A stretch of 33,139 bases of DNA from Candidatus Saccharimonadota bacterium. GTDB taxonomy: Bacteria > Patescibacteriota > Saccharimonadia > Saccharimonadales > UBA4665. Location of the stretch: NCBI GenBank assembly GCA_025928155.1, contig JAICKC010000017.1:1-33139 (forward strand). Reading direction: 5' to 3'. The position numbers and the translations under genes were made by a program. The notes beneath the pieces were generated by a model. The model ran no database searches, had not been told where the DNA came from, and saw only the letters and a list, made by a program, of their open reading frames with translations. The stretch's first letter is position 1; each line of letters starts with the position of its first letter. Positions 18,085-26,741 of this stretch are shown here, one piece after another.

Positions 18085-18993
18085 ATGCGTAGCCTGCATC
18101 AAACCCTTCACCTCCAGCACCGCCGACATACCGGACGGTTGTTGCACCATCATCACACCAGCTACCGAGCACTGGCCGTGGTGCTTGGACTAGCTGGATT
18201 GCTGATAGTGGGGCTAGGAGCGGTCAACCGTGCTGCCGCCGATTCATTCGGGGTGGCCGCCGTGGTAAATGTGCCTGTGCCGAGCATGGCGCCAATTATC
18301 GCGACACCGGGTGTGAGTGCTGTGGTAAATCAGTCGAGCGTACTTGTAACCGGCAGCTGTCCGCTAGTCGCTCCGCAAGTAGTTATAGATATAACGGTAG
18401 ACGGCGTGCTGACAGGTACGGGCGCCTGCGACCCGACCAATGACTTTGCAGTCCCCATTACGCTAGCTGGCGGCAAACACCAAATCGTAGCCGGCAGCAC
18501 GACTATTACCGGACAGAATGGCCCAAGCAGTCGTCCGCTCGCTATAACAAACACAGCACAAACAGGCGCGCCCGTTATCAGCGTAGCGGCCGACTCGCCC
18601 TCTACGTTCCTCGGTGACGACAAAACTGCCAGCTGGAGCGGCAGCGTCAGTTCCACCGGCACGAGTCCGCTATTCGTCCATATCGATTGGGGCGACGGTG
18701 CCCAACACAACGGCGCTATCAAGCCCGGTGCGCAGAGTTTTAGCCACACCTACTCCCAGTTGGCTTCACACAATATATTGCTGGCTGTCAGCGACGCGGC
18801 CGGCAACAGCACCGTCATGCAGTATGCCAATGCCGCATTTACCATCGCCGCACCGCGCCAGCCGGCTCAAGCTCCGCCGCTCTATGGCAGCCGTACTATG
18901 GCCGGCCTCTACGGGCTCTACATCACCGTGATGTGTGTCGCCACTATCATTTGGCTTGAGGCTCGACATTCAGCCAAACACGTTGCGCTGTAG
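18085..18993 (+). CDS. surface protein with His-rich N-terminus and PKD-like domain
   Basis: A 302-residue membrane protein. The cytoplasmic N-terminus is very His/Arg-rich and carries HTGRLLHHHHTSYR, followed by a transmembrane segment (~30-48), a beta-rich exterior, and a PKD-like domain near residues 190-250 (IDWGDG, then SHTYSQLASHNILLAVSDAAGN). It ends with a second transmembrane segment (GLYGLYITVMCVATIIWLEA) and a short tail. The paralog at 19057 shares the whole plan. PKD domains serve in adhesion or as spacers on cell surfaces, so a role in envelope structure or host-cell contact is inferred. A weak TATGGT box precedes the ATG; no ribosome binding site is seen. Confidence 0.75.
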   Translation: MRSLHQTLHLQHRRHTGRLLHHHHTSYRALAVVLGLAGLLIVGLGAVNRAAADSFGVAAVVNVPVPSMAPIIATPGVSAVVNQSSVLVTGSCPLVAPQVVIDITVDGVLTGTGACDPTNDFAVPITLAGGKHQIVAGSTTITGQNGPSSRPLAITNTAQTGAPVISVAADSPSTFLGDDKTASWSGSVSSTGTSPLFVHIDWGDGAQHNGAIKPGAQSFSHTYSQLASHNILLAVSDAAGNSTVMQYANAAFTIAAPRQPAQAPPLYGSRTMAGLYGLYITVMCVATIIWLEARHSAKHVAL

Positions 18994-19025
18994 CCAGACT
19001 CTTAGGCACCACCCCTGAATTAGGG

Positions 19026-19031
19026 TATACT
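19026..19031 (+). promoter_or_regulatory. -10 box of the second PKD-like gene
   Basis: TATACT predicts a start near 19038, leaving a leader of about 19 bases without a ribosome binding site before the ATG at 19057. Confidence 0.4.
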
Positions 19032-19056
19032 ATAAGCAGTTTAGCGATATAAAAAC

Positions 19057-20211
19057 ATGCGCACGATTCATAAAACCCTGCACTTGCAGCAACATCACCA
19101 CACCGGTCGGCTGCTGCACCACAAACACACCAGCTACCGCGGCCTAGCGGTCGTGCTAGTGGTAGCCGGCGCATTTATTGTAGGGCTTAACATGGTGGCA
19201 CACGCTACGGCCGATTCGATGATCAACGTATCGCTCACCGTGCCGGCACCAATACCTGCTGACCCACCCATCATTACCGACCCGATCGACGGAGACGTAA
19301 CTACCCAGGCGCACACAACCGTCAGCGGCACCTGCCCCGTTATCACACCCAATGTCATTGTCGCCATTTTTGACAACGGTACCATGGCAGGATCGGCCCC
19401 GTGCGACAGCGACCATACGTTTGACGTATCCATACCATTAGTGCCGGGGAGTAATGCGCTCGTAGCCCGCGTGTACACCATCACCTATGACGCGGGGCAG
19501 AGTAGCAACACTATAACTATCACCTACAACGCTCCATCAGGCTCTGATACCACTCCGCCGGGCGGCAACGGGGGCAGCAGTTCGGGCACTACCGGCGGAT
19601 CTGGGGGTGCCGGCGGCAGCTCTAGCAGTCCCGGCAGCTACTATAATGGCGCCGGCAGTAATTCCAGTGACACAAACTACGGCACAGGCGTGGGGGCAGG
19701 CTCCGGTAGCGCCCTGCTCAATATCACCATCGACAAACCGTTTGTGGTCTTTGGACCGCAAGCACCGGCCGTCTGGAGCGGCAGTATTACCGGCGGCGTA
19801 CTTACCTACCACGTACATATCGACTGGGGCGATGACGGCTCTAATGTCTATACTGTTACCCGGAGCGGTCACCTAGACTTCACCCACCGCTACTCCAGCA
19901 TGCAGCCACATACTATAACTTTCAACGTCAGTGACGCGAACGGCCAGAGCCTGACGCGACAGTACGCCGCCGTAACGCCCTATGTGTCGCCAACGGTCGG
20001 CGCGGGCACCACTACCACCCCACCTGCTTCAATCTTCGGCCAGCAGTTCGGAGGCTACCAGCTCGTGGGTCTCTACGGCGCGTACCTATTTGCTCTGGCA
20101 GCTTTTGGCTACCTGTGGGTACGAAATCACCACGAGTTTGCTTTCGCAAAAGTGCCGACTCGCGGACATAGGACGGCCGTTAGGACTAAAGCCGCGCGGA
20201 GGCGCAAATGA
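19057..20211 (+). CDS. surface protein with His-rich N-terminus, Gly/Ser linker and PKD-like domain
   Basis: A 384-residue paralog of the preceding gene. It has the same N-terminal signature (HTGRLLHHKHTSYR), transmembrane helix, a first beta domain with SGTCPVITPNVIVAIFDNG, then a Gly/Ser-rich linker of about 60 residues (GGNGGSSSGTTGGSGG and more) absent from the sister protein. A PKD-like domain (IDWGDDG, FTHRYSSMQPHTITFNVSD) follows, then a C-terminal transmembrane segment starting LVGLYGAYLF, and a basic tail ending KAARRRK. Paired cysteines in SGTCP and SAPCD match SGSCP and TGACD of the sister and may form a disulfide. Its TGA stop overlaps the next start as ATGA, indicating coupling. 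Confidence 0.78.
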   Translation: MRTIHKTLHLQQHHHTGRLLHHKHTSYRGLAVVLVVAGAFIVGLNMVAHATADSMINVSLTVPAPIPADPPIITDPIDGDVTTQAHTTVSGTCPVITPNVIVAIFDNGTMAGSAPCDSDHTFDVSIPLVPGSNALVARVYTITYDAGQSSNTITITYNAPSGSDTTPPGGNGGSSSGTTGGSGGAGGSSSSPGSYYNGAGSNSSDTNYGTGVGAGSGSALLNITIDKPFVVFGPQAPAVWSGSITGGVLTYHVHIDWGDDGSNVYTVTRSGHLDFTHRYSSMQPHTITFNVSDANGQSLTRQYAAVTPYVSPTVGAGTTTTPPASIFGQQFGGYQLVGLYGAYLFALAAFGYLWVRNHHEFAFAKVPTRGHRTAVRTKAARRRK

Positions 20212-20792
20212 GCAAGCGCGCTAAAGTCTGGCTCATCAGCGTGGCTATATTCATAGTAGTAGCCGTGCCTACCGCTATGACGCTGCGCAGCTGGATGAAT
20301 AGCGACTCTACCGGGACCGTAAGCGTCGGCCAACCCAAAGGTAACGCCGCCGTGGCAGCGCAGCCGATAGACGTTACCAATAACTTCTTTGCTGCCACAC
20401 TGCCGGCCGGCTTTAGTATAAGAAGCCAGCAAAACGGCTCACAAAATCCGACCGAAGAATACAGTGTAGATGCCGCTACCAGTGGCGGCATCCAAATGGA
20501 GCTAACTATAAGTTACGGCACCATGCTGGATGGTAGGCTCGATAGCGTCTCAGGCTACCAGCTGCGTGCCACGCAAACCAGCAACTATACACCGTATAGT
20601 GTGCCGGGCGCACCATCGGGCAGCGTCGCCTTCCGTGACCTTAACAACCCATATTCTTCGGCTGCCTACGTAGTATTTTGGCCGCGTAACGGCTCCTGCG
20701 CCACCATCGCCCTGACCGGCGGTGTAGGCGCTAACCTGAGTCAGCTCAATACCAGCTTTGCGCAGCTCGTGAGCTCCTGGAAATGGAAGTAG
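20208..20792 (+). CDS. small membrane-anchored extracellular protein, unknown
   Basis: A 194-residue protein with one N-terminal membrane segment (VWLISVAIFIVVAVPTAMTL, residues ~7-26) and an exterior domain containing PIDVTNNFFAATLPAGFSIR, a pattern seen in small anchored proteins where a short strand is followed by a folded alpha/beta domain. One cysteine is present, in NGSCATIAL. I do not recognise a family. GGAGG at 20198-20202 and the ATGA overlap place it in an operon with the PKD-like gene, suggesting a partner role at the membrane. Confidence 0.72.
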   Translation: MSKRAKVWLISVAIFIVVAVPTAMTLRSWMNSDSTGTVSVGQPKGNAAVAAQPIDVTNNFFAATLPAGFSIRSQQNGSQNPTEEYSVDAATSGGIQMELTISYGTMLDGRLDSVSGYQLRATQTSNYTPYSVPGAPSGSVAFRDLNNPYSSAAYVVFWPRNGSCATIALTGGVGANLSQLNTSFAQLVSSWKWK

Positions 20793-20823
20793 TTGTAAGG
20801 GTGGCGGCTTGTTGAATGTAGAG

Positions 20824-20832
20824 TTATCCACA
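20824..20832 (+). other. DnaA-box-like nonamer
   Basis: TTATCCACA matches the DnaA box consensus exactly and lies in the 123-base gap after the small anchored protein gene. It is single, so it is not an origin. It could be chance or a regulatory DnaA site. Confidence 0.25.
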
Positions 20833-20834
20833 AC

Positions 20835-20855
20835 CAAGCAACCACATATTGCTTG
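20835..20855 (+). terminator. possible weak terminator hairpin
   Basis: CAAGCAA (20835-20841) and TTGCTTG (20849-20855) form a 7-base-pair stem with a 7-base loop. No U-run follows, so termination is uncertain. Its right arm also contains the possible -35 of the next gene. Confidence 0.25.
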
Positions 20856-20877
20856 TGCTTAGAAAATTATGTACACT
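20849..20877 (+). promoter_or_regulatory. promoter of the WQL surface protein gene
   Basis: TTGCTT (20849-20854) and TACACT (20872-20877) are separated by 17 bases. The predicted start near 20884 gives a leader of about 32 bases containing TTAGGAAAAA, a weak ribosome binding site. Confidence 0.4.
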
Positions 20878-20915
20878 GACTCTCAGAAACTATAAATATT
20901 AGGAAAAATAACAGT

Positions 20916-21956
20916 ATGAATCTACCAAAAGGCAAAAAATTATTACGAATAGCTTCTGCAAGCGTGCTGGCGAGTAGCTCAATCCTGAGTCTTGGCTTTG
21001 CCAGCCTTGCCCACGCTAGTAACCTCAGTAACGTAGAGGTACGTTTTGACAACATGAAAGTCAGTGCCGGCACAACCGGTACCATATGCGCTAAACCCGC
21101 AACAGCAGGTACCGAAGCTTTCGTGGCCATAACATTTCCTACTGGGTTCACTGTAGGAGCTGCTGGAACTTGGGCAGTTAACACGACCAACCTCGCTTGG
21201 CCTACTGGCGCAATAGCTTGGCCCGGTATCACCACCACTCCAGCGCCGACTGTATCAAGTCAAACTGTAACCTTCACCGCTGGCGACTTAACGGTCGGTA
21301 CTCTTTACTGCTTCAACTGGACTGGTACTACTTCTGTCACTGAGCCAGTAACAAACGGTAACAGCGAACTTGGTAGCGTTACCACCCAACTAGCCGGTAA
21401 TACCCCCCTGGACTCATCTCCGTATGCGACTGCCACACTTACCGACAACACCGTAGTAGTAACCGCGACCGTGCCACCGCTCTTCCAGATGAGCATGAAC
21501 GTTAACAGTGATGCGCTGGGTACAATTAACACGCTGAACCCCGTATCGTCCTCAGGCACCAAGCCAGCGGTAACTATCAACACGAATGCCAAGAACGGCT
21601 GGCAGCTGTGGGGTAACGACAACAACACCGGCCTTAAATCCACACAGGCTAACTACACCATCGCCTCTCATACCGGCACACTGGCAACCGGCCAAGAGTT
21701 CTATAACACTGGCGTGTTCAGCAAGACTCAGGTTGGCGGCGCCGGAACCATCAGCATAGTCGCCGGTTGGGACGATACAACCCCTAACTTCACCGGCACC
21801 GGCCTTACCACTTCACTGCAGACAATCGCAACTTCAAACGGTACCACCGACACCGGCGTAGTCACGCTGATAAACAACGCGGTCATTAAAGCAACCACCC
21901 CTGCTGCAACCGACTATTCTGACACCCAGAACTACGTCGCGGCCGCCCTGTTCTAA
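20916..21956 (+). CDS. secreted surface protein with WxL-like C-terminal domain
   Basis: A 346-residue secreted protein with a signal peptide (basic start MNLPKGKKLLR, hydrophobic core, cleavage near AHA-SN at ~34). Residues ~35-185 form a Thr/Gly-rich beta domain with a Cys pair (TICAKP and LYCFNW). Residues ~190-346 hold a second domain with NGWQLWGNDNNTGL (Trp229, Gln230, Leu231) and a final YSDTQNYVAAALF. This second domain aligns by eye with the protein at 26181-26741 (YGLYMYANGSSDM, then VDIIYTAVALN). The WQL, its partner genes and the terminal strand recall WxL domains that bind peptidoglycan in Firmicutes; this is inference from pattern and context. No membrane anchor is present, so it may be held by the next gene products. 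Confidence 0.72.
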   Translation: MNLPKGKKLLRIASASVLASSSILSLGFASLAHASNLSNVEVRFDNMKVSAGTTGTICAKPATAGTEAFVAITFPTGFTVGAAGTWAVNTTNLAWPTGAIAWPGITTTPAPTVSSQTVTFTAGDLTVGTLYCFNWTGTTSVTEPVTNGNSELGSVTTQLAGNTPLDSSPYATATLTDNTVVVTATVPPLFQMSMNVNSDALGTINTLNPVSSSGTKPAVTINTNAKNGWQLWGNDNNTGLKSTQANYTIASHTGTLATGQEFYNTGVFSKTQVGGAGTISIVAGWDDTTPNFTGTGLTTSLQTIATSNGTTDTGVVTLINNAVIKATTPAATDYSDTQNYVAAALF

Positions 21957-21974
21957 AAGCGAATTGCATATAAT

Positions 21975-22008
21975 ACAAAACTACGACATTTTACGGTCGT
22001 AGTTTTGT
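21975..22008 (+). terminator. hairpin terminator after the WQL gene
   Basis: ACAAAACTACGAC (21975-21987) pairs with GTCGTAGTTTTGT (21996-22008) in a perfect 13-base-pair stem around an 8-base loop. The right arm carries TTTT. Its end overlaps the extended -10 box of the next gene, and a TATAAT (21969-21974) sits just before the left arm. Confidence 0.55.
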
Positions 22009-22014
22009 TATACT
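22006..22014 (+). promoter_or_regulatory. extended -10 promoter of the first tandem DUF916-like gene
   Basis: TGTTATACT ends 8 bases before the ATG at 22023, predicting a leader of about 2 bases. The TGT is the last part of the terminator stem. Confidence 0.45.
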
Positions 22015-22022
22015 GGGGTGTA

Positions 22023-23108
22023 ATGAAGCAGTGGAAGGTAACGACGGCTACGCTGATTGTGGTGGGGCTGATTCTGAGTAGCTTAAGTGCAATCGCTCAT
22101 GCGGCCAACAGCGCCCCGGTCGGCACATTCAATCTACAGGTCACCCCTTCGCCGCTTGTTGAAACCGTCAAGCCCGGTACTAAGACTACCCTGCAGCTCA
22201 AGATTCGCAATGTCGGCACCGGCACCGAGAACTTGAAGATCGTACCGCGCAGCTTCAGGTACGATAGCGCTACTGGCAAAGTACAACTGGACGACAAGAC
22301 CCCACCCCAGATTGCCAGCTGGCTTACCTTTGCAGCACCTACCTTTACCATTCAGCCCGGTCAGTGGTTTACTGAACAAATAGCCGTAAATATTCCTAAG
22401 ACAGCCGGCTTCAGCTACAGCTTCGCGCTGGAGATCAGCCGGCAAAAGATATTGCAGGCCCCCACAGCTGGTCATGCTATCAACGGATCCGTAGCAGTGT
22501 TCGCACTCCTTAACGTGGATCGGCCAGACGCCAAGAGCGAGCTAAAAGTAGTGAACTTTACCGCAGACAAGAAACTGTATGAATATCCGCCCGTAACTCT
22601 CGCTGTACGGTTCAACAACACCGGCAATACCATTTTGCAGCCTTCTGGCAATATCTTTGTGCAACGCGGAGTGACCGCTAAAACACCGATGGCCACACTG
22701 GCGGTCAACGCCAAAGACAGCTACATATTGCCCGGTACTCAGCGCAGCATGAGCGCCACCTGGAATAGCGGCTTTGCAACGTATCAGTCCACTACTAACT
22801 CCAATGGAAGTGTAACGAAGCACCTGGTGGTTGACTGGCAGAAGTTCGCCCAATTCCGTATCGGCAAATATACCGCGAGCCTCGTGGCCGTATACAACGA
22901 CAATGGTCGTGATGTACCTGTCCAGGGCACCGTAACCTTCTGGATCATACCGTGGCGCGCCATAATAGGCGCTCTACTCGTTATTGCCTTACTGGTCTGG
23001 TTCGTACGCTGGCGAGGCAAGAGACGCACTGAAAAGGCGGTTAAACGAGCTCTGGCGGCACAAGCGGCCGCCCAAAAGAAAACGGAAGCGGAGAAAAAGG
23101 GTGCATAA
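22023..23108 (+). CDS. membrane-anchored DUF916-like surface protein A
   Basis: A 361-residue protein with a signal peptide (cleavage near AHA-AN), two beta-sandwich regions and a C-terminal anchor (WRAIIGALLVIALLVWFVRW) followed by a long Lys/Ala-rich cytoplasmic tail. The first exterior domain has VTPSPLVETVKPGTKTTLQL, RNVGTGTENLKIVPR, a WLTF segment and TAGFSYSFALEIS, the same order of features as in WxL-interacting proteins (DUF916): charged loop, Asn-rich turn, tryptophan, and a Gly-Tyr strand. The next gene is a close paralog, including a 35-base identical stretch. ATG 22023 was chosen because it lies directly after the -10 box. Confidence 0.75.
   Translation: MKQWKVTTATLIVVGLILSSLSAIAHAANSAPVGTFNLQVTPSPLVETVKPGTKTTLQLKIRNVGTGTENLKIVPRSFRYDSATGKVQLDDKTPPQIASWLTFAAPTFTIQPGQWFTEQIAVNIPKTAGFSYSFALEISRQKILQAPTAGHAINGSVAVFALLNVDRPDAKSELKVVNFTADKKLYEYPPVTLAVRFNNTGNTILQPSGNIFVQRGVTAKTPMATLAVNAKDSYILPGTQRSMSATWNSGFATYQSTTNSNGSVTKHLVVDWQKFAQFRIGKYTASLVAVYNDNGRDVPVQGTVTFWIIPWRAIIGALLVIALLVWFVRWRGKRRTEKAVKRALAAQAAAQKKTEAEKKGA
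22194..22228 (+). repeat. 35-base exact repeat, copy 1
   Basis: A stretch beginning CAGCTCAAGATTCGC and ending GGCACCGGCACCGA is identical to 23278-23312 in the neighbouring paralog. It encodes QLKIRNVGTGT plus the first two bases of the next codon. It marks recent duplication or gene conversion. Confidence 0.85.
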
Positions 23109-24204
23109 GTGGCGCGCCTGGCTGGGGTTCAGTTCCCTGGGGGTACTGCTGTTACTGCCTGCAGCGGCGCATGCCATTAGCTTTGGCGGCGGTACTGACA
23201 CGTCTGGCACTTTCAATCTGCAAATCACCCCTTCGCCGCTCGTTACCACCATAAAGCCAGGCGTAAAAACCACGGTACAGCTCAAGATTCGCAATGTCGG
23301 CACCGGCACCGAAGATCTCAAAATAGAGCCTCGCGCCTTCAAAATCAGCAGCGACAGCACCAGTATAAAGCTTCAAGACACTCCCCCACCTGACATCGAT
23401 AACTGGGCCAGTTTTGCCAATTCCACCTTTACTATCAAGCCGGGTGAATGGTATACCGAGAACATCACCCTCAAGGCTCCGGCCGCCGCGGGGTTCAGCT
23501 ACAGCTTCGCTATCCAGATTAGCCGGCAGAAGGTAGTTGGCGCCCCCAGTTCTGGCCACGCAATCAATGGGTCGGTGGCAGTTTTTACGCTGATAAATGT
23601 AGACAGACCGGGCGCCAAGGCGCAGCTTGACGTGGACGAGTTCAAAACAGACAAAAAAGTTTACGAATATTTGCCAGCCAACCTTTCGATCCGCTTTCGT
23701 AACGCGGGCAATACCATCGCTCAACCGGCCGGCAATATTTTTATCCAGCGCAGCACTAAGAATAGTACACCTTTGAGCACCCTAGTCGTTAACCCCAAGG
23801 GCAGCTACATACTGCCTGGCACTACACGCACTATATCCGCCACCTGGAACGATGGTTTCCCGCACTACAATGTCACTACTGATAGCAATGGTAAAACCAC
23901 TAAGAAACTTAGTTGGAGCGGGGCAAACTTATCGCGCCTGCGCATTGGCCGCTACACCGCCAGCCTCGTGGCAGTTTATAACGAAAATGGACGTGACGTT
24001 CCAGTTGTTGGCACTGTGTCGTTTTGGGTTATACCCTGGAAAATCTTACTGGTATTGCTGTTGGTTGTCCTGTTGGTACTCTTCGCCCTCTTCATGATTG
24101 GCCGCTTCATCTACAAACTGGTGCGGCGACGTGGCCGGGGCCCTGTCAAAAAGCAGACTAAAAAACCGTCAGAAGGGTCTGCCGCCGACAGTAAAGACGA
24201 GTAG
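23101..24204 (+). CDS. membrane-anchored DUF916-like surface protein B
   Basis: A 367-residue paralog of the preceding gene, matching along nearly the whole length (signal peptide ending AHA, TPSPLVTTIKPGVKTTVQL, RNVGTGTEDLKIEPR, AGFSYSFAIQISRQK, then a final membrane segment KILLVLLLVVLLVLFALFMI and a basic tail). The start is GTG at 23101, where VHKWRAWLGFSSLGVLLLLP forms a proper signal peptide; an upstream ATG would add a long basic stretch inside the previous gene. The 8-base overlap with the previous stop and GGAG at 23091-23094 point to coupled translation. Two such proteins side by side suggest hetero-assembly or paralogs with divided roles. Confidence 0.75.
   Translation: MHKWRAWLGFSSLGVLLLLPAAAHAISFGGGTDTSGTFNLQITPSPLVTTIKPGVKTTVQLKIRNVGTGTEDLKIEPRAFKISSDSTSIKLQDTPPPDIDNWASFANSTFTIKPGEWYTENITLKAPAAAGFSYSFAIQISRQKVVGAPSSGHAINGSVAVFTLINVDRPGAKAQLDVDEFKTDKKVYEYLPANLSIRFRNAGNTIAQPAGNIFIQRSTKNSTPLSTLVVNPKGSYILPGTTRTISATWNDGFPHYNVTTDSNGKTTKKLSWSGANLSRLRIGRYTASLVAVYNENGRDVPVVGTVSFWVIPWKILLVLLLVVLLVLFALFMIGRFIYKLVRRRGRGPVKKQTKKPSEGSAADSKDE
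23278..23312 (+). repeat. 35-base exact repeat, copy 2
   Basis: Identical to 22194-22228 in the tandem paralog. Confidence 0.85.
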
Positions 24205-24253
24205 TAACGCTCAAAATTGCCAAATAGGATTTTAAAACAGTCTTTACGGCATG

Positions 24254-24262
24254 TGTTATAAT
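24254..24262 (+). promoter_or_regulatory. extended -10 promoter of the tail-like gene pair
   Basis: TGTTATAAT is a perfect extended -10 box. The predicted start near 24269 leaves a ~94-base leader before the ATG at 24363, long for this window. A 36-codon frame starts in that leader at 24299. Confidence 0.5.
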
Positions 24263-24362
24263 GTGCTTACGCTTACTTGTATGTGAGAAGCAAAACAAAT
24301 GTTTGAGATTTTAGGCGAAAATAAACCGCTAAAACTTAAACTAAAAGTGAAAGCAAACAAAC

Positions 24363-24572
24363 ATGCGTGGGAATCTGCGCGAGAAACTCAACACCGAGGT
24401 AACTCGTAAACAGTTTATTCAGTATATCGGCATCGCGCTGCTGATGTTGTTTGGTTTGCATAACTTCTTGCAACTACTCGGCAGCGACAAACACGGCGTG
24501 CATGGCTCCCTCTTACAGCCTCTGGGCAATGGCGCAACAGACAGCTTCGGCACGCGGAGGTTTGGGAAGTAA
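24363..24572 (+). CDS. small one-helix membrane protein
   Basis: A 69-residue protein with a basic start (MRGNLREKLNTEVTRKQ), one transmembrane segment (FIQYIGIALLMLFGLHNFLQ, residues ~18-37), and a short polar tail containing a His (HGVHGS). No family is recognised. The stop is 3 bases before the next ATG, so it belongs to an operon with the phage-tail-like gene and may anchor that protein. No clear ribosome binding site precedes it. Confidence 0.6.
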   Translation: MRGNLREKLNTEVTRKQFIQYIGIALLMLFGLHNFLQLLGSDKHGVHGSLLQPLGNGATDSFGTRRFGK

Positions 24573-24575
24573 GCC

Positions 24576-25298
24576 ATGGCAGTTCCACAGCGCCTCCCGA
24601 TAGTTGGCCAGGACGACGGTACCTGGGGCGACATTATTCGCCAGTTCCTCATGAAGGAACATTATAACGACGATACCGACAACCCCGATAACGGTGGACA
24701 CCAGAACGTCACTATCCGACCGGGCACCACCTCGGCCGCTCCGCTCACCTTCTCGAGCGGATCATTGCTAACTACCCCTGCTTCCGGCTCGGTTGAGTTC
24801 AACAGCAGCGACCTCTATTTCACTCCGAGCACGACACGCAAGAAGGTCGCCATTTACGATGACAGTTCTGGCGCCACCGGCGACACATACTACCGAGATA
24901 GTTCTGGTAACTTTGTGCGCCTCGGCATAGGATCCAGCGGCCAAACCCTGCAGGTAGCGAGTGGCCAGCCGGCCTGGGGCAACTCTATGAACTTCGGCTG
25001 CAGTACGCAGACCAGCAGCTACACCCTGACCCAAACTGATACCGTTATGCTCGCCGATGCTTCTAGCAGCAATATCACCATCACCCTGCCTGCCGCCAGC
25101 AGTTTCGGCGGCCATCGATTTTATATCAAGCGCATTGATGATGATACCCTATCCATTAACACCGTCACCATTGGCCGCACCAGCAGCGACACCATCGACG
25201 GCGCCACTAGCTATGCGCTCGGTAAGCAATACGACGTGGTCGAAGTGGTCAGCAACGGCAGTAATTGGTTTATACTGAGCAGCGTCACACATCCCTAA
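24576..25298 (+). CDS. phage-tail-fibre-like protein
   Basis: A 240-residue protein with no signal peptide. The N-terminus (PIVGQDDGTWGDIIRQFLMK, then EHYN) has the G-x-DDGTWG pattern common in phage tail and baseplate proteins. The C-terminal ~90 residues (YTLTQTDTVMLADASSSNI, then TITLPAASSFGGHRFYIKRI, SDTIDGATSYAL and NGSNWFIL) resemble a repeat domain of tail fibres. It has Ser/Thr-rich middle strands. A role in surface attachment is inferred. The missing signal peptide is puzzling for a protein in an envelope locus; export could be by another route. GGGAAG at 24564-24569 serves as ribosome binding site. Confidence 0.65.
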   Translation: MAVPQRLPIVGQDDGTWGDIIRQFLMKEHYNDDTDNPDNGGHQNVTIRPGTTSAAPLTFSSGSLLTTPASGSVEFNSSDLYFTPSTTRKKVAIYDDSSGATGDTYYRDSSGNFVRLGIGSSGQTLQVASGQPAWGNSMNFGCSTQTSSYTLTQTDTVMLADASSSNITITLPAASSFGGHRFYIKRIDDDTLSINTVTIGRTSSDTIDGATSYALGKQYDVVEVVSNGSNWFILSSVTHP

Positions 25299-25300
25299 TC

Positions 25301-25309
25301 TGTCATAAT
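25301..25309 (+). promoter_or_regulatory. extended -10 promoter of the third DUF916-like gene
   Basis: TGTCATAAT ends at 25309 and the ATG starts at 25316, exactly at the expected transcription start. It lies 2 bases after the stop of the tail-like gene. Confidence 0.5.
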
Positions 25310-25315
25310 GGAATC

Positions 25316-26188
25316 ATGCACCTGTTGAGACGAGTGGTTGTGTTTGTAACACTAGCATCGCTATTTATCCCGACCGCCCATGCTGTCACCCCTGAGAAGG
25401 GTTTACTCATAGCCCCAACCCAGCAATTTCTGTATGTGGACGCCGGCAAAAGCCTGCAGAGTTCGTTCACGGTTACTAATCTGACCGACCAGCCATTACC
25501 GCTCTCGTTCAGTATCAAGCAGTTTTCGGTAGCCGACTACAGCTACACCTACGAATTCACCCCACCACCCAATGATTGGCTCACCTTAGACACTACTGCC
25601 ACTATGCTGCCCGCCAAACAGGCCATGAAAGTCGCTTATACCATAACCGTGCCGTCTCGTGCCGCCCCAGGCGGCCGATACTACACCCTGCTGGCCAGCG
25701 CTACTACTTCGGACGGCGGCGTCAGTAGTACTATTCAGGCGGCCGACTTGCTCTACCTGACCGTCAACGGCCAGCTACTCACCAGCAGCGTACTAAAGAG
25801 CGGCAGCATCCAACGGTTCGCGTGGGGCAACGCCTTTACGTTTAAGCTGGCGCCGGAAAATATCGGCAACGTCTATACTAACGTACAAGTACACGGCCGT
25901 CTTGTAGGCCTCTTAACCAAGCCGGAACAAAAGGGTGACGCGCACATACTTATCCCCGACAAACCGCGTACACTAACCGGCGCTATACCCACGCCCCTGC
26001 TGCCGGGTGTATACCGTGCTGAGTACGGCTACACGACCAGTGGCGACTGGAACATCCTCGAACACGCCTGGGTAGTGTTTGTACCGCCCTGGTTCCTGTC
26101 CCTGCTACTGGTCATAGCAATTCTGCTGCCAAGGTTGCTATCCAAAAAAAAGAAAGTTGGCGAGCTCAAGTCACCCAAGCCTAGTTGA
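25316..26188 (+). CDS. DUF916-like (WxL-interacting-type) membrane-anchored surface protein C
   Basis: A 290-residue protein with a signal peptide (MHLLRRVVVFVTLASLFIP, cleavage near AHA-VT), an exterior of about 220 residues, and a C-terminal membrane helix (WFLSLLLVIAILLPRLL) with a basic tail. DAGKSLQSSFTVTNLTDQPL, WLTLDTTATMLPAKQAMKV and VPSRAAPGGRYYTLLA follow the plan of DUF916: a chain of strands, NxT/D turns, and a PxxAxxGxxY strand. It is a distant relative of proteins A and B above. Its start fits a -10 box seven bases upstream, without a ribosome binding site. The stop overlaps the convergent gene by 8 bases. Confidence 0.72.
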   Translation: MHLLRRVVVFVTLASLFIPTAHAVTPEKGLLIAPTQQFLYVDAGKSLQSSFTVTNLTDQPLPLSFSIKQFSVADYSYTYEFTPPPNDWLTLDTTATMLPAKQAMKVAYTITVPSRAAPGGRYYTLLASATTSDGGVSSTIQAADLLYLTVNGQLLTSSVLKSGSIQRFAWGNAFTFKLAPENIGNVYTNVQVHGRLVGLLTKPEQKGDAHILIPDKPRTLTGAIPTPLLPGVYRAEYGYTTSGDWNILEHAWVVFVPPWFLSLLLVIAILLPRLLSKKKKVGELKSPKPS

Positions 26189-26741
26189 GTGCTACAGCAG
26201 TGTAAATTATATCCACCTTGTAGTCGCCCGCTGGCTTAGTCGAATCAGCCAGGACGCCGAACGTCACCGTGGTACCTTCACCCGAGGTTTGCGGGCCGCT
26301 GCTTTGTTTTATAAGCGTCGGCAGTGTACTCAGACCCAAGAAATCTGTGCTGGATCCGTCGGTATTGTACCCCCACGTGTTGTCCGTCAGCGACGCAGCC
26401 GAGCCATTCGTGCTCGCGGGGATGGTAGCGCCGTCACCCACCATATCACTACTGCCGTTAGCATACATATACAGCCCATAGCCTTCTGGGTCGGTAGTTG
26501 TAACGGTAACAGTAGTGTTGCCCGTACCCGTCAGGTCGCTGCCGCTGAGTGACAGATTCAGGTTAATGTCGCCTCCTAGTGTAATCCCTAGGCCTGTTGT
26601 CGAGCCGAACGGTATGTCGGACCCAAAGCTACCCGATCCAAACGGCGCCGCCGCCGCAGTTCCCGAAAGTGACACCAAGGCAAGCAGCACAGCTATGATC
26701 AGCCCCGGCCTAAATAGCTTACCGCGCAGTCCCTTTGTCAT
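26181..26741 (-). CDS. small secreted protein with domain related to the WQL protein
   Basis: A 186-residue secreted protein. The signal peptide is MTKGLRGKLFRPGLIIAVLL with cleavage near AAA-AP. After a Gly/Ser-rich stretch comes a domain with EGYGLYMYANGSSDM, DNTWGYNTDG, and a closing DYKVDIIYTAVALN. This matches by eye the C-terminal domain of the 20916 protein (NGWQLWGNDNN, NYVAAALF). It therefore resembles a small WxL-type partner of the anchored DUF916-like proteins next to it, but has GL in place of the WxL tryptophan. No membrane anchor is present. The ATG at 26741 lies exactly at the expected transcription start of a TATACT box; a longer frame upstream would overlap the ATPase. Confidence 0.72.
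   Translation of the reverse strand: MTKGLRGKLFRPGLIIAVLLALVSLSGTAAAAPFGSGSFGSDIPFGSTTGLGITLGGDINLNLSLSGSDLTGTGNTTVTVTTTDPEGYGLYMYANGSSDMVGDGATIPASTNGSAASLTDNTWGYNTDGSSTDFLGLSTLPTLIKQSSGPQTSGEGTTVTFGVLADSTKPAGDYKVDIIYTAVALN

Follow-up and report, generated by a model that had tools for sequence, protein, structure and literature searches.

A probable surface-fibre gene cluster of a Saccharibacteria-class bacterium, related to the Pam system and equipped with WxLIP-like membrane anchors

In chaperone–usher pili, the pilus chaperones complete the pilins by lending them a strand. The orphan fibrils TLP-1a and TLP-1b from pond water are reportedly assembled by donor-strand exchange. In the WxL/WxLIP systems of Lactobacillales, WxLIP (DUF916–DUF3324) combines two Ig-like domains with a TM helix at its C-terminus, and the gene of its partner, a WxL protein, directly adjoins that of the anchor. 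NQIDKxxxYFDLK is the conserved motif of DUF916, and the completion of WxL by a WxLIP strand has been predicted with AlphaFold2 (PMC10599100). Strand-exchange fibres that form without the outer-membrane machinery of the chaperone–usher route have been described for TasA/TapA and for archaeal threads, and are compared with the present locus only for the way they work (PMC10151520, PMC9674648, PMC9715654); TasA/TapA is the precedent for strand exchange in a monoderm (PMC10151520). Finally, a 'Pam pilus' of CPR bacteria is catalogued in NCBIfam (June 2026) through the families NF058578 (PamR, curated cut-off 300 bits), NF058579 (PamT) and NF058581 (Pam_pilin_C, curated cut-off 55 bits). NF058577 and NF058580 were considered as further members and rejected as unrelated families, and no paper supporting the pilus name was found in the literature searched.

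The locus described here spans positions 18085 to 26741 of the window, a stretch of 33,139 nucleotides that makes up contig C7 in a genome of 1.30 Mb with 98% completeness. The initial annotation had read it as a WxL/WxLIP-like system of three membrane-anchored DUF916-like proteins and two secreted proteins with a common domain, which could serve host attachment; each gene that it listed is open at its given coordinates. Related loci were found in named Saccharibacteria and in other CPR bacteria. The cluster begins with two tandem genes, the first of which (18085..18993, + strand) encodes a PamR-like membrane protein of 302 aa with an N-terminal hydrophobic segment, Ig/PKD domains (PKD_4 in Pfam, 1.5e-4) and a C-terminal TM segment. 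Its paralogue of 384 aa (19057..20211, +) aligns with it in BLASTP at 2e-35. The two match NF058578 at 3e-23 (82 bits) and 1.1e-31 (110 bits), respectively, against the cut-off of 300 bits, and as judged from sequence they are homologues of PamR, not equivalogs. The next gene (20208..20792, +) encodes a protein of 194 aa with an N-terminal TM segment; a Pfam search with it gave no match, and iterative HMM searching recovered 26 members of its family among the fetched loci, in the same neighbourhood, making it a conserved member of the operon.

The three anchored proteins are encoded on the + strand at 22023..23108 (361 aa), 23101..24204 (367 aa, GTG start) and 25316..26188 (290 aa). In each sequence, a hydrophobic segment at the N-terminus precedes two beta domains, and a hydrophobic helix with a basic tail forms the C-terminus. 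This layout is visible in the AlphaFold2 model for 23101 (pLDDT 90.7), where the helix spans residues 313-345, and the C-terminal hydrophobic segment is readable from the sequence in the other two. The 22023 and 23101 proteins are 55% identical (family A6); pairwise BLAST found no match between them and the 25316 protein (family A4), and profile comparison joined the two groups into one family (hhalign 100%, E 3e-44).

Pfam detected no DUF916 in the three window proteins, even at E<5. Relatives, however, do match DUF916 (PF06030): 24 of the 60 related genomes hold a protein that scores above the cut-off, and 19 of the 35 proteins aligned for the 25316 family are hit, with a best value of 1.7e-6. 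The orthologue of the 25316 protein in genome G106, which sits in the same operon (L061), reached 30.8 bits against a cut-off of 27.3. The profile of the 25316 family, whose alignment takes in paralogues from contigs C30, C27 and C12, found the solved Enterococcus faecium WxLIP (EfmWxLIP1) at E 1.1e-6. Against WxLIP reference proteins from lactic acid bacterial plasmids, the 22023/23101 family reached a probability of 97.4% in hhalign and the 25316 family 97.5%, the latter alignment extending into the second domain; mismatched pairs used as a control gave 0.1-0.7%. The best PDB match of the 23101 model was 9i25_C (Z 12.9 over 227 residues), entitled 'WxLIP from Enterococcus faecium locus A bound to long WxL', and the second was the pilus chaperone CsuC (Z 12.1). 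The second Ig-like domain of the anchors aligns to WxLIP both in structure (residues 37-312 of the 23101 model) and by profile (25316 family). DUF3324 (PF11797) had no match in the window proteins or in members of the 25316 family, and the NQIDKxxxYFDLK motif is absent from the three window anchors and from the A2/A4 consensus. A tblastn search of plasmids with a CPR anchor as query returned nothing; a contig search with a two-sequence profile likewise returned nothing, and a larger alignment succeeded. On the strength of the profile comparisons, the Pfam matches in relatives, the match to a solved WxLIP and the predicted fold, the anchored proteins form one family of distant homologues of WxLIP (DUF916–DUF3324), and their initial description as DUF916-like is borne out.

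Between the second and third anchor genes lie a gene for a small protein of 69 aa with a single hydrophobic segment (24363..24572, +) and one for a fibre-like protein of 240 aa (24576..25298, +), which lacks a signal peptide, begins with PIVGQDDGTWGDIIRQFL and is kept at the same place in related loci. Its N-terminal motif, PIVGxDxGxWG, also occurs on a pectate-lyase-like protein of 621 aa on contig C27 (L010:2901-4766). In relatives, further fibre-like genes without signal peptides, together with a methyltransferase-like gene, come after genes of the 24576 type, for example at L042:11533-16733. The possibility that the 24576 protein stems from a virus was considered and rejected, since its viral match is single and remote.

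The larger of the two pilin-like secreted proteins (346 aa, 20916..21956, +) comprises a signal peptide, an N-domain at about residues 39-177 and a C-domain at about 184-346; the smaller (186 aa) is encoded convergently at 26181..26741 on the minus strand. The two do have a C-terminal domain in common, as the initial annotation had stated: the likeness is weak in BLAST (E 0.02) and better by profile (87%, E 4e-6), and both domains align with the Pam pilin family (hhalign 94.8% for the larger and 95.8% for the smaller protein). With NF058581 itself, the smaller protein gave 0.13 and 12.3 bits (cut-off 55) and the larger no match. The AlphaFold2 model of the larger protein (pLDDT 93) has an N-domain resembling YcnI/BslA (Z 8.6-10.4) and a C-domain that resembles the archaic pilin CsuA/B (Z 7.8) and, over 136 residues, the TLP-1b fibril subunit (Z 8.0); Z values of about 8 fall in the range where unrelated or chance fold matches occur, so these last two likenesses are support and not proof. 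The pilin profiles had no meaningful match among PDB sequences, including none to TLP-1, and the link to TLP-1 is therefore one of fold only.

To what extent the two protein types belong together can be read from their neighbourhoods. Under a strict rule, a pilin gene of the 20916 type lies directly upstream of a 22023/23101-type anchor gene in at least 41 of 43 independent loci, counting the anchor genes with enough flank; the two misses are due to an overlap (L094) and an intervening tandem anchor (L106). Adjacency of this order argues that the pairing did not arise by chance. Close relatives of the 22023/23101 anchors (E<1e-45) are present in 44 of the 393 genomes of the class. The recurrent gene order, seen in 40 fetched loci and in many of 80 named loci, is PamR-like gene, 194-aa type, one or more pilins, one or more 22023/23101-type anchors, 25316-type anchor and long secreted protein. 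Dozens of Saccharibacteria have the order from the PamR-like gene through the small protein and the pilins to the anchors, and the pilin–anchor core extends to Moranbacteria, Levybacteria and other CPR bacteria. The 194-aa type gene shifts its position, lying ahead of the pilins in Saccharibacteria and behind the anchors in Moranbacteria and Levybacteria. The secreted proteins downstream of the 25316-type gene at L049, L060, L063, L071 and L077 measure 500-2750 aa and start with INRQxxFQGKLTNxDGTNV; they are possible fibre or tip adhesins, and the only Pfam domain among them is a weak H_lectin in a single protein.

Together, our results indicate, with moderate confidence, that the cluster, known here from its genes and predicted folds, encodes a surface pilus or fibre of a divergent Pam type in a CPR bacterium of the Saccharibacteria class. 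Since pilus-like subunits and WxLIP-related holders are paired in a conserved cluster, it probably builds surface fibres of the recently catalogued CPR pilus type, not a WxL coat. In the mechanism that we propose, the anchors encoded at 22023, 23101 and 25316, with their two Ig-like domains and TM helix, would hold the 20916 and 26741 pilin-like proteins at the membrane. After Sec export the C-terminal Ig-like domain of the pilin would be incomplete, and a beta strand of the anchor would complete or cap it; the anchor would then pass the pilin to the growing fibre, or remain as the fibre base. The tandem PamR-like PKD proteins may act at the base or in cell–cell contact. We infer polymerisation, strand donation and adhesion to host cells, the last in keeping with the host attachment initially suggested for the cluster. 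This arrangement resembles that of archaic chaperone–usher pili in the chaperone-like fold of two Ig domains (CsuC) and in the pilin-like C-domain (CsuA/B). It differs in that the holder is anchored in the membrane by a TM helix, and no sequence similarity between the two was detected.

The main rival is a static, non-polymeric platform of the WxL/WxLIP kind, whose anchors would hold single secreted proteins that either present adhesive N-domains or bind the long fibre proteins encoded downstream. The homology of the anchors to WxLIP fits such a platform, as do the long secreted proteins that follow the anchors in many relatives and are comparable to the large WxL adhesins described elsewhere (PMC9772566). 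The partners, however, carry a Pam pilin domain and not a WxL domain, and the presence of multiple pilin paralogues per operon, together with the CsuA/B-like fold, suggests a polymer; a platform of this kind is thus possible, but we regard it as rather unlikely.

We hold it very unlikely that the cluster is a true WxL system whose WxL domains have diverged past recognition. In favour of this reading, a secreted protein with a C-terminal domain adjoins a DUF916 anchor here as in WxL clusters, a conserved C-terminal strand ends both domains, and the Pam pilin family has a weak match to the WxL alignment (hhalign 5.5%) on that last strand only. Against this, the window pilin families reached no more than 0.1-0.3% with the same alignment, and the WxL profile PF13731 found nothing in the genome at E<=10 and nothing in the 46 homologues of the 20916 protein (0/46). 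Two WxL motifs occur in none of these homologues (0/46), nor is there one in the last 25 aa. The single 'WQL' of the 20916 protein is incidental, as no more than 5 of the 46 have W-x-L in that alignment column. Among the 50 matches listed for the 20916 model the WxL chain of 9i25 does not appear, an absence that counts as no evidence. By these sequence tests, which did not find the defining features of WxL, the cluster does not belong to the WxL systems; on their sequences, the secreted partners are Pam-type pilin-domain proteins and not WxL proteins. The initial annotation was right about the DUF916/WxLIP anchors, which HMM searching recovered in relatives; its WxL reading of the partners is not supported. 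The result that it had named as a refutation, no likeness to WxL/DUF916 folds and no co-occurrence in relatives, did not come about, since the anchors share the fold of WxLIP and co-occurrence of the genes is very strong. The comparison with WxL/WxLIP clusters keeps its ground in anchor homology and in the direct adjacency of partner and anchor genes. It breaks down at the identity of the partner, at the missing DUF916 motif and at the number of anchors, several per cluster. More improbable still is a phage-derived tail-fibre island with the anchors and pilins as passengers: the signal-less 24576 protein has a weak phage-tail likeness (T4_gp9_10_N, 0.028) and is trailed in relatives by the further fibre-like and methyltransferase-like genes, but most relatives have the core operon without fibre-like genes, and a lone, remote viral match is all that this protein has.

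The preferred reading, a divergent fibre cluster of Pam type, was also compared with the type Pam system. Both have WxLIP-like anchors beside the pilins, and the window has two PamR-like genes and two proteins with a Pam-type pilin domain. Unlike the type system, which has one anchor, the cluster has three; it lacks adjoining F1-like ATPase genes, and PamT (NF058579) is absent from the window, matches in its own genome being confined to contig C30. All window proteins score below the curated Pam cut-offs, and the cluster is thus not the type Pam system; it is a divergent relative of that system, being neither WxL nor type Pam. Pam pilins above the cut-off are encoded on contig C30 of the same genome, C27 and C12 encode others with weaker scores, and at each of these sites a WxLIP-like anchor adjoins. 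As far as we have checked, two results are new: that the anchors are related to WxLIP, and that this second type of operon is widely conserved.

On contig C30 (L009:678-6993), a divergent F1-like ATPase set with c-like, b, delta, alpha, gamma, beta and epsilon-like genes lies directly beside the canonical Pam genes. The regular atpA of the genome is located on C1 and scores 708 bits, compared with 371 for the F1-like gene of C30. Of 10 relatives examined, 8 have F1-like genes next to their Pam genes, and in seven of these alpha, gamma and beta are all present (linkage loci L215, L216, L218-L220, L222 and L224); one of the two Pam loci without them is interrupted by a contig end. Between the F1-like and Pam genes of C30 lies a gene for a protein of about 340 aa that resembles bactofilins and H-lectins (L009:7957-8979), which is kept in 9 of the 10 Pam loci examined and stands mostly on the opposite strand in relatives. 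A rotary ATPase linked to a pilus would, if true, be striking.

A wider scheme, which we put forward tentatively and consider unlikely as a whole, would have CPR bacteria assemble strand-exchange pili with a membrane-tethered WxLIP-like protein as both pilin chaperone and base. WxLIP, the CPR anchors and the chaperones of chaperone–usher pili would then form a single class by mechanism. In this scheme a divergent F1-like rotary ATPase of its own would be coupled to the type Pam system, and TLP-1 and other orphan fibrils might belong to the same group. How CPR epibionts build surface fibres other than type IV pili is little known. The present results tie an uncharacterised operon, which occurs across CPR lineages, to WxLIP and to the chaperones of chaperone–usher pili, both of them families of solved structure, and thereby yield a directly testable model; they also suggest that the WxLIP proteins of lactic acid bacteria may share the mechanism of pilus chaperones.
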